Shown here in pieces: positions 14,613 to 17,338 of a stretch of 42,587 nucleotides of DNA. Position numbers and translations under genes: made by a program. The notes under the pieces are model-generated. The model saw only the letters and a program-made list of their open reading frames with translations. It did no database searches and was not told where the DNA came from. Source of the DNA: Myxococcales bacterium. GTDB lineage: Bacteria > Myxococcota_A > Polyangia > Polyangiales > Polyangiaceae. The DNA lies in assembly GCA_020430845.1 (NCBI GenBank), contig JAGQJA010000271.1, positions 1 to 42,587 on the forward strand, written 5' to 3'. Each line of letters begins with the position of its first letter. Position 1 is the stretch's first letter.

Positions 14613-15083
14613 CTAAGGGGGACCGCCGGCCTCCGGGGCTCCGCCATCGGCGTTGCACGCGCCGCAAGTCCCCGCGCCCAGCGAGCTCTTGATCCACGAG
14701 CAGGACCACGTGCCGGCAGCGCAGCGACAGACCACGCCGCTGCGCGGTCCAGTTCCGGTACCGCAGCACTGCACTTGGAGTGCGAACGCGCACTCGGGCT
14801 CCGACGCTTCGCAGGCACCGCTGGGCACGGATTCCACGCCCAAGAAGACGTCGCCTTGGATGATGCTGCCCCCGCAGCGAGGGACGCAGAGGGGTCGACC
14901 GCTTGCCGGCACGTCCTCGATGGCAAACTGAGCGACGATCGACTCCCACGTGCGCGGAGCGCCGGTAGAGCAAGAGCCTTGGGTGACCGCAGTTCCTGCC
15001 GGCTGACTCTGGTCGGAACTCGTGCATGCAGGGAGCAGAAGAACCCCGCCGAGCACGAGACCGATGATTCCTCTCGCCCTCAT
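14613..15083 (-). CDS. Small Cys-rich lipoprotein
   Basis: The 156-residue product has a lipoprotein signal (LGGVLLLPACTSSDQ). Its C-terminal half carries about 14 Cys (CVPRCGG, VQCCGTGTG, VVCRCAAGTWSC, GTCGACN), likely disulfide-bonded outside the cytoplasm. No family is recognised. Its ATG overlaps the stop of the upstream gene by 4 bp, so it is the third gene of the 14.6-17.2 kb operon. Wobble positions are less GC-rich than in flanking genes. Confidence 0.75.
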   Translation of the reverse strand: MRARGIIGLVLGGVLLLPACTSSDQSQPAGTAVTQGSCSTGAPRTWESIVAQFAIEDVPASGRPLCVPRCGGSIIQGDVFLGVESVPSGACEASEPECAFALQVQCCGTGTGPRSGVVCRCAAGTWSCSWIKSSLGAGTCGACNADGGAPEAGGPP

Positions 15084-16000
15084 GGCCTCGCGTCCCCAAC
15101 CGGGTCATCCCAGCTTGTCATTGTCACCTCCTGCCCGGTGATATCGAAGTGGCGCACCGTCGTTTGGTCAAGCACATCCCACGTGACGGCCGCATACCAG
15201 CGGTGACCGAGCGGAAGCGCATGGTGTACCCGAACTACGCCGTCCCTCCCCGCAAACGTCGCTGGCAGGAGCGTCCGAAAATTGCCCGTCAAAGCCCCCT
15301 TGAATTCCGCAATCCGCGCCCGAATATCACCCGGCAGCTCCGGCCACCAGATACGCTCCGCAACGACCACGTCATTCGTATTTAGCCTTGCCCACGCGAA
15401 TGAGTCTGAAACCTCCACGCCGTCGACAGACCGATGCAGAACCGTGGTCACCCCCTGAGAACTTCGTTTGTCGGAGGAACGGTCCATCGGCCCAGTCATG
15501 TCCACGCCCACGGTCACGCTCGCTCGGCCAACCTGCTCAGTGGGCAAGCCCGCCCCAGCAAAATAGCCACGCACCCTCACCTCGTGTGCCTCTGGCGACC
15601 TATAGAACGGTCCAGCTCGCAACGCTGCGTTGGCATGGGGCGATGTCTCGGAATACCCGTTGGCCCAAGCGACGAAGGCCTGTGAAGGACCGACAAGGCG
15701 CACTCCGAACGGAGTCTGTTCCGTTTTCTCGACCTCTGCCATCTTGTGCGACGTGGCGCGCGTCTGGCGGAAACCTGCGATCGAGTCAACGCCAAGTCCA
15801 CCGGCGGCGAGCAACCGCCAGGGAGCGCGCGCGGCACCGGCCGCACGAACTGGCTGCGCATGCCGGCCCAGTCCAGAGCCTGCGCCTTCCCCCCGCTTCT
15901 GCTGACGAGGCGGCTCATCGACGCCCGCGCTACAGTGAAGACCTGCAACAAGGAGAGCGCTCACGACCAGAACGACTACCAATGCACTGAGGCGCTTCAT
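15080..16000 (-). CDS. Secreted protein of unknown function
   Basis: The 306-residue product has a signal peptide (MKRLSALVVVLVVSALLVAG) followed by LHCSAG, an imperfect lipobox with His before the Cys. Residues about 30-75 are unusually Arg/Gly/Ala-rich; this could be a linker or hide compensating frameshifts. The rest is a mixed alpha/beta domain (FGVRLVGPSQAFVAWANGY, GVTTVLHRSVDGVEVSDSF, RWYAAVTWDVLDQTTVRHF). No function is recognised. Its ribosome site is a run of eight G on the coding strand 6 nt before the ATG. It lies 15 bp after the DUF6345-like gene and overlaps the next gene by 4 bp. Confidence 0.65.
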   Translation of the reverse strand: MKRLSALVVVLVVSALLVAGLHCSAGVDEPPRQQKRGEGAGSGLGRHAQPVRAAGAARAPWRLLAAGGLGVDSIAGFRQTRATSHKMAEVEKTEQTPFGVRLVGPSQAFVAWANGYSETSPHANAALRAGPFYRSPEAHEVRVRGYFAGAGLPTEQVGRASVTVGVDMTGPMDRSSDKRSSQGVTTVLHRSVDGVEVSDSFAWARLNTNDVVVAERIWWPELPGDIRARIAEFKGALTGNFRTLLPATFAGRDGVVRVHHALPLGHRWYAAVTWDVLDQTTVRHFDITGQEVTMTSWDDPVGDARP

Positions 16001-16006
16001 CGCCCG

Positions 16007-16014
16007 CCCCCCCC
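16007..16014 (-). repeat. Poly(G)8 tract acting as Shine-Dalgarno
   Basis: A run of eight C on the plus strand reads as eight G on the coding strand, 6 nt before the ATG at 16000. It is the only plausible ribosome site for that gene. Mononucleotide runs of this length can change by slippage, so translation could vary. Confidence 0.6.
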
Positions 16015-16015
16015 T

Positions 16016-17201
16016 TCAGTATCCAAACGGATAGGTGTCGCAATCGAAATTGCACATCCACCTAGCATGAAAATATCCCGTACCCTTGGCATCATTGAAA
16101 TCTGGACGTACGGAAAACCAGTTTTCGAAGATCAGCGATGACGCTTCTGCTGACGTCGCACCAAGGGAGGTGATGATGTGCCCACCGCAGCCGTTGACAC
16201 CGTGTCCTCCACCGTAGATCTGCCCGGAGGAGTTCCTACAGCGAGAGAATGGATCGCCAGCGTCGTCCGGCATACTCGGAACTGCAGCCATCCAAGCGTC
16301 GCTCACCGCGCCTGATGGGTTCGCCGCGTAGCTAACGCCGAACCAGAAGCCACGCGAGGGCTCATCACGAGTGTCTCCTTCGTGAACGAGGACATTCGCG
16401 AGCATGTGAATTCCGCCAAAGGACGGCCACACCTCCTGCCCGCGATTGCTCATCTCCGCAAAGGACGCGGCAAGCACGACAACGTTTGTCCCACCAACGG
16501 CACCGGCGCCACCCCACGCGCCCGACCAGTTACTTTCCCCCCAGTTCACCCACCCACCATTGGTATAGTTGACGTATCCGCCTCGCGAAGGACCAGCACT
16601 GCAGTTCCCAAGTGCGAGTATGCGCCCCACCGTACTCGTGTAGCTACACGTACCCGTCTGGTCGCCAGGGAGATAGCGGCAAAACCCAGGTGTCGTGCTG
16701 TTTGGAATCGGTGGCCACGCGCCAGGCAGACCGCTTCCACACTGCCAGCCGGCGACGCATGGCTGACAGTTTGGAGGGTTTGCGCCATCGCAACGAGCAT
16801 CCGCTACGCTAGGATAGCCGTGCCCAGCGAAGTAGGAAAAAGCTGTCCCGCGCTTGTCGAAGTATGAATCATCCGAGTCGACGCCGCCACACCCTGTATT
16901 GCCCGGCACGCAGCCGGTACCTTCTGGGTCATAGAAGTCAGTTGTCCAGACGTTGCTGTCTAGAAATGAAAACCCATATTGATAGTTTGCCGGGTTCCCT
17001 GGATAGACAAGCGCGTCACGAAAACCCACGGCATTCGTAATCGACCCGGACAGGGAAGGCCCGTTGCATTGGGTGTAGTCGTTGACTGCCTCAATGGTGA
17101 CGAACGGACCGGCTTCAGCGTCCTTGTGTGCCGCAATGGAAGCACACAAGCAGGATACTGCTAGGGCGAGGCGAGGCGAGGCGAGGCGAGGCGAGGCGCA
17201 T
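16016..17201 (-). CDS. Secreted DUF6345-like (clan CD-like fold) protein, out of frame at its start repeat (phase-variable candidate)
   Basis: The body (about 377 residues) resembles DUF6345-type secreted proteins. It has a His motif (FSYFAGHGYPS), a later strand NVVVLAASFAEMS where relatives tend to have Cys, then FGGIHMLANVLVHEGDTRD and AVSDAWMAAV. The only well-placed start is ATG 17201, with six G forming its ribosome site. Between it and the body lie six CGCCT units. As sequenced, this ATG is one frame off and stops after 28 codons. Adding one unit or removing two restores a full signal peptide; with four units it reads MRLASPRLALAVSCLCASIA. TTG 17149 would give the body without a leader. 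It is the first gene of the 14.6-17.2 kb operon. Confidence 0.7.
17169..17198. repeat. Pentanucleotide tandem repeat (AGGCG)6 inside a signal-peptide region
   Basis: Six perfect AGGCG units on the plus strand (CGCCT on the coding strand), plus one imperfect GGGCG unit at 17164-17168, sit directly after the ATG at 17201. Unit length is not a multiple of three, so each change shifts the reading frame. Confidence 0.9.
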
Positions 17202-17338
17202 GATTCCCCCCAGATAACAGGCGACTACGAACCGTCGAGCCGGAAATCCAACACTGACGTTCACCGTCAGGCCAAAAACCCTAGCAGTCGCGCTCGCCAT
17301 TGCAACACTTGAGTCGCGCCAAAATTGGCGCTCCCCGT

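Follow-up and report, generated by a model that had tools for sequence, protein, structure and literature searches.

The question raised by this locus is whether a run of pentanucleotide repeats placed directly behind a start codon serves to turn an exported protein on and off by changing its reading frame. The window, that is, the whole stretch of 42,587 nucleotides that was analysed, corresponds to contig C102 of a draft assembly of 8.56 Mb in 806 contigs (genome G000 in what follows), and the gene of interest is the first of a three-gene operon on its minus strand.

The repeat tract and the reading frames at the window locus

Read on the minus strand, the start of the gene is GGGGGGAATC ATG (CGCCT)x6 CGCC CTAGCA, and the operon consists of the following features.

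17278 to 17322, minus strand: conserved upstream block (TTGGCGCGACTCAAGTGTTGC ... CGACTGCTAGGGT) with a promoter-like TTGCAA-16-TAGGGT, from the alignment with the upstream region of the paralog
17206 to 17211, minus strand: GGGGGG ribosome-binding-like stretch, 5-10 nt 5' of the ATG, from the sequence; GGGGG is kept in the paralog
17199 to 17201, minus strand: ATG start codon of the OFF frame, from the sequence; the equivalent ATG in the paralog on contig C201 opens a full-length in-frame gene
17165 to 17198, minus strand: pentanucleotide tract (CGCCT)6 CGCC of 34 nt, 6.8 copies with 100% match, from TRF and direct reading
17115 to 17201, minus strand: OFF product of 28 codons (MRLASPRLASPRPSSILLVCFHCGTQGR) and TGA stop, from translation
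17111 to 17164, minus strand: core (hydrophobic) and cleavage site of the body-frame signal peptide (LAVSCLCASIAAHKDAEA, then GPFV), read in frame with 7 or 4 units
16016 to 17149, minus strand: body of 377 codons and stop, predicted exported DUF6345 protein (PF19872), from Pfam match, alignment and fold comparison
15080 to 16000, minus strand: operon gene 2, predicted lipoprotein of 306 aa of no known family, with a homolog beside the DUF6345 gene in seven loci
14613 to 15083, minus strand: operon gene 3, Cys-rich predicted lipoprotein of 156 aa; a 54% identical protein occupies the same place in C201

An earlier note on this DNA had placed six perfect CGCCT units right after the ATG at 17201, and both direct reading and TRF agree with these coordinates. 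Its further claim, that this start is out of frame with the 377-codon body and runs into a stop after 28 codons, is borne out by translation, the ATG frame being closed by the TGA at 17117-17115; and its expectation that one unit more or two fewer would restore the gene holds in silico, where the addition of one unit gives 396 codons and the removal of two gives 391 codons, both with the signal peptide joined to the body. The joined product has the h-region LALAVSCLCASIAA and a cleavage site between AEA and G, and the unit numbers that produce it are 7, 4 or 1. With one unit fewer or two more (five or eight), the reading frame runs in silico into a stop where the tract ends (CCC TAG), which would leave the gene OFF in two frames of three. 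The tract itself is stop-free in all three frames, each of which reads as a permutation of RLASP. The body frame is open in the 5' direction as far as an upstream TAG, and between this TAG and the TTG at 17149 it contains no ATG, GTG or TTG; this first TTG, from which the body length of 377 aa was counted, sits inside the signal-peptide core.

In 770 kb of the source assembly, the window tract and the paralog tract are the only pentamer tracts of at least four copies, and no pentamer tract reached 20 nt in 4 Mb of order-3 Markov sequence; the CGCCT tract is therefore far beyond chance. The promoter-like TTGCAA-16-TAGGGT was not called by a stricter promoter scan, and the predicted folding of the leader RNA is unremarkable (z +0.9). 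A terminator-like hairpin (CTGACGGTGAACGTCAG then TGTTGGATTT; 17254-17270, minus strand) separates the conserved upstream block from the ATG and is missing in the shorter leader of the paralog.

Both genes downstream of the DUF6345 gene are intact. A homolog of the 306-aa gene adjoins the DUF6345 gene in C201 and in genomes G003, G111, G031, G023, G143 and G072; for the 156-aa Cys-rich lipoprotein, the matches outside C201 are weaker. The GC content of the operon (14613-17201) is far below that of its neighbours (58% in the body, with a GC3 of 0.61 compared with about 0.9), which is what one would expect of genes that were acquired or are of the surface type. Elsewhere in the same genome (locus L066, 6626-6636, contig C7) a C11 run, which is a G11 run on the minus strand, lies just 5' of the ATG of a response-regulator-like ORF, and possibly represents a second switch.

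From the sequence of the locus and its relatives, we consider it highly probable that the CGCCT tract is a translational phase-variation switch. Slipped-strand mispairing in the tract would add or remove units, and each change would alter the frame in which signal peptide and body are read from the fixed ATG. A tract of 1, 4 or 7 units would give the whole exported DUF6345 protein (ON), while the 6 units present here would yield the 28-residue peptide only (OFF); the untranslated OFF message may also, via polarity, lower the two downstream lipoproteins. Cells within one population would then differ in their export of the DUF6345 protein, provided that slippage is frequent and reversible, as we infer. 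The (GACGA)4 tract of Haemophilus hsdM switches at a high rate (PMC2651432), from which it follows that four to seven pentamers are enough in principle.

The paralog, the DUF6345 relatives and the predicted product

A second copy of the operon, with 80% aa identity, is found on contig C201 of the same assembly. Its start, GGGGGAAACC ATG CGCT (CGCCT)4 CTGGCG, is in frame and opens a gene of 390 codons, the product of which begins with MRSPRLASPLALMCLCLTLSAGRAAYA and is cleaved before GPFV. In the whole 8.56 Mb assembly (CGCCT)4 occurs at the window locus and in C201 only, and the two copies also share an upstream block (TTGGCGC.ACTCAAGTGTTGC ... CGACTGCTAG.GT) and a G-run 5' of the ATG. The tetranucleotide composition of C201 fits the bin, which makes a true paralog likely; C201 could also be a contig of a co-binned relative. 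ON and OFF lengths are thus found at equivalent positions, with 6 units (OFF) in the window and 4 units (ON) in C201, in paralogs and not in clones; in draft assemblies such as these, the tract length given may be one chosen from several.

Comparison of the bodies in the window and in C201 gives a Ka of 0.13 with saturation at synonymous sites (pS 0.80); the repeat has thus persisted far longer than neutral sequence would, and the body is under purifying selection. It is accordingly improbable that we are looking at a decaying gene, in which one slip has turned expression permanently off and a pseudogene is in the making. The given sequence cannot yield the full protein from any canonical start, and the low GC3 of the body would also suit such a gene; however, 377 codons without a stop or frameshift, amino acid change held at this level against saturated synonymous change, and two intact downstream genes all argue against decay, as do the CGCCT repeat kept by the paralog and the tracts that recur at the equivalent position in other loci.

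Under the phase-variation reading, the homologs of the gene are of interest. A profile search found about ten related loci, nearly all in Polyangiaceae; a protein search of the GTDB r220 contigs gave no relative, and a literature search found no paper naming DUF6345. The tract is missing in six homologs (G111, G003, G023, G143, G105 and G074), which means that the switch is not essential to the DUF6345 family; those in G003, G111, G143 and G105 begin with an ordinary, repeat-free signal peptide, and the G023 homolog starts without a tract. In the G031 homolog, from another genus and about 30% identical at the amino acid level, the gene begins with ATG(ATCACGC)6 and a TGA follows immediately in the ATG frame (OFF); the gene would be restored by one unit more (366 codons) or two fewer (359 codons), in either case with a signal peptide. 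No other run of three ATCACGC heptamers is present in the 108 family genomes. The G070 homolog (L188 and L056, contig C1 at about 743,300) carries a G12 run 13-24 nt 5' of its ATG, directly after TTGACAACC; in 400 kb of G070 no other homopolymer reaches nine, and the run possibly reflects transcriptional or RBS-spacing phase variation. The (CGCCT)n, ATCACGC and G12 cases together indicate that unrelated repeats came to lie at the 5' end of one gene family. In G072 (L189/L051, contig C114 at about 790-835), a hexamer tract, (TCCTCG)7.5, precedes the DUF6345 homolog by about 250 nt and could vary promoter spacing, not frame.

In the ON frame the sequence contains a signal peptide with an A-x-A cleavage site, and the A-x-A preceding G is common to the window, C201, G003 and G111 homologs; the product is predicted to be exported. 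The match to PF19872 (35.7 bits against a cut-off of 26.9, E 8e-9) covers the N-terminal part only, residues 19-114, and a PDB sequence search found nothing. An AlphaFold2 model built from 17 sequences reached modest scores (pLDDT 57, pTM 0.67). With this low-confidence model, the folds listed by VIA-align were of the clan CD type (CHAT, caspases, metacaspase, legumain, gingipain, separase and C11; best Z 9.8, rmsd 3.7, 183 aligned), and the best Foldseek E value was 2.4e-3. The alignment has one invariant His (His94), kept in the window protein, with a His-Gly after one core strand, and a Cys column after a later core strand that holds Cys in most relatives and Phe in both G000 copies. The body may resemble clan CD proteins (CHAT, caspases, metacaspases, gingipain, C11) in its low-confidence predicted fold, its His-Gly and its Cys column, and differs from them in the Phe that replaces Cys in both G000 copies. 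As the catalytic His-Cys pair of clan CD peptidases is not found in the window protein, peptidase activity is not expected of either copy, and the window protein is probably an exported protein of predicted caspase fold that has lost peptidase activity, and not a peptidase.

Similar tracts at other exported genes

Across the family, pentamer, tetramer and heptamer tracts stand right after an ATG, some of them in frame and most out of frame. The (ACGC)5 repeat occurs at four places in 108 genomes, and all four lie just 3' of the ATG of an exported or lipoprotein gene, ON in G031 C20 and OFF in G031 C12, G031 C8 and G070 C3. CGCCT tracts follow the ATG of lipoprotein genes on two contigs of G060, ON in C11 (with an FGE-sulfatase domain) and OFF in C157, and that of a trypsin-like lipoprotein gene in G074 C105, which is OFF; another trypsin-like lipoprotein gene, in G070, has (CGCAGCA)32 at its start and is also OFF. 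The OFF gene that follows (ACGC)9.5 in G031 C8 (L238) is subtilase-like, just below the Pfam cut-off (19.7 vs 21.8 bits).

In G060, CGCCT tracts are present on at least five contigs (C11, C157, C346, C690 and C707; L180, L181, L182, L183 and L184), which form a predicted multi-locus switch family within one genome. On C11, C157 and C707 the tract comes after a common leader (TTTCTGGACATGATGCCTCGAGGTTAA...), with different genes behind it. We rejected G060 C690, G060 C707 and G003 C155 as switch genes, where ATG and repeat are present and a clear exported body is absent; likewise, many CGCCT tracts of the family (G029, G122, G123, G126, G035, G084, G098, G006 and G107) showed no clear exported-gene start.

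A survey of 1.97 Mb from three genomes, for units of 4, 5, 7 or 8 in at least four copies, gave six tracts, five of which begin at most 7 nt from an ATG and, in one frame and no other, lead into a long ORF with a signal-peptide-like stretch; of these five, three come from regions picked because they hold the homologs and two from elsewhere. A search of GTDB r220 for an ATG followed by 0-6 nt and (CGCCT)4 yielded 20 stretches, of which about nine are myxobacterial or deltaproteobacterial. At the planctomycete loci L210, L211 and L213, exported-protein genes with ATG and CGCCT tract are OFF, one unit short; the L211 and L213 bodies resemble each other. A bias of OFF tracts towards 'one unit short' fell to about 10:4 after the ACGC loci were added, and we do not claim it.

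These out-of-frame tracts, and the in-frame tract of the paralog, would be left unexplained if the unit number in the window were an assembly or sequencing error and the real gene were in frame, an alternative that we regard as very improbable. A draft of 806 contigs lends it some weight, tandem repeats being a known weak point; however, the tract of 34 nt is shorter than a short read, the loss of a 5-nt unit is atypical for base calling and, even with a wrong count here, slippage of the tract would still be expected. Barely credible is the proposal that another start or programmed ribosomal frameshifting yields the complete protein whatever the repeat number, with the tract as a peptide spacer (RLASP) or RNA element: the stop-free RLASP permutations and the TTG at 17149 in the body frame would allow it, but no ATG, GTG or TTG precedes the signal-peptide core in that frame, a start at 17149 would cut off the n-region, an RNA structure in the leader was rejected as not special (z +0.9), and programmed frameshifting was rejected because pentamers need +1 and tetramers or heptamers another frame, so that one frameshift signal cannot serve all.

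Instead, frameshifting tracts appear to make up a recurrent set of phase-variation switches in Polyangiaceae, acting on exported proteins that are for the most part peptidase-like. The broader proposition is that Polyangiaceae, perhaps with planctomycetes and other large-genome soil or water bacteria, carry an opa-like switch set, in which unrelated repeats of 4, 5 and 7 bases arose independently, each directly behind the start codon of a gene for an exported and in most cases peptidase-like protein, and each cell would secrete a random subset of these proteins; on this we find the case evenly balanced.

Comparison with known contingency genes

The earlier note had seen in this locus the classical layout of a phase-variable contingency gene, rarely reported in myxobacterium-like genomes. 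That layout is supported by the in-frame repeat of the paralog, the different repeat in a homolog, the tracts at exported-gene starts in the family and the intact body under purifying selection; as in opa-type contingency genes, a unit that is not a multiple of three lies in the 5' coding region of an intact, constrained body with a predicted exported product. The claimed rarity fits our literature search, which found no report of phase variation by simple sequence repeats (SSR) in myxobacteria; in a myxobacterial genomics review, phase variation comes up only in a reference. The mechanism is already known, and the setting, a soil myxobacterium, is apparently new.

SSR contingency genes have been studied almost only in host-adapted pathogens; a review of 2025 points to a gap where soil and ocean bacteria are concerned (PMC11868660). 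If the phase-variation reading is true, randomisation of part of the secretome extends to free-living bacteria that are probably predators, and the benefit would lie in a population whose cells differ in their exported or surface-exposed proteins, for example during predation or phage attack. The loci listed here allow direct length assays, and they carry a warning for annotation, where such genes show up as truncated or N-terminally wrong ORFs.

Among known systems, the yellow/tan phase variation of Myxococcus xanthus is similar in being a reversible population heterogeneity in a myxobacterium; it is not known to depend on a repeat at the 5' end of a gene. The tetra-, penta- and heptanucleotide SSR loci of Haemophilus influenzae share with ours short frameshifting coding tracts of equal unit sizes, but are mostly LPS, adhesin and restriction-modification genes, whereas here they are exported proteins and lipoproteins, many of them peptidase-like. 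The closest likeness is to the opa genes of Neisseria, whose expression is switched by CTCTT repeats within the codons for the leader peptide (PMC3960869, PMC4534519): in both, a pentamer lies in the 5' leader-peptide codons, the unit number sets the frame, the product is exported, and several loci per genome include ON and OFF copies. The tract described here, in contrast, is made of CGCCT units that begin immediately after the ATG, the proteins have no relation to Opa (DUF6345, with a predicted caspase-like fold), and the host is a free-living soil bacterium in which switching is predicted.
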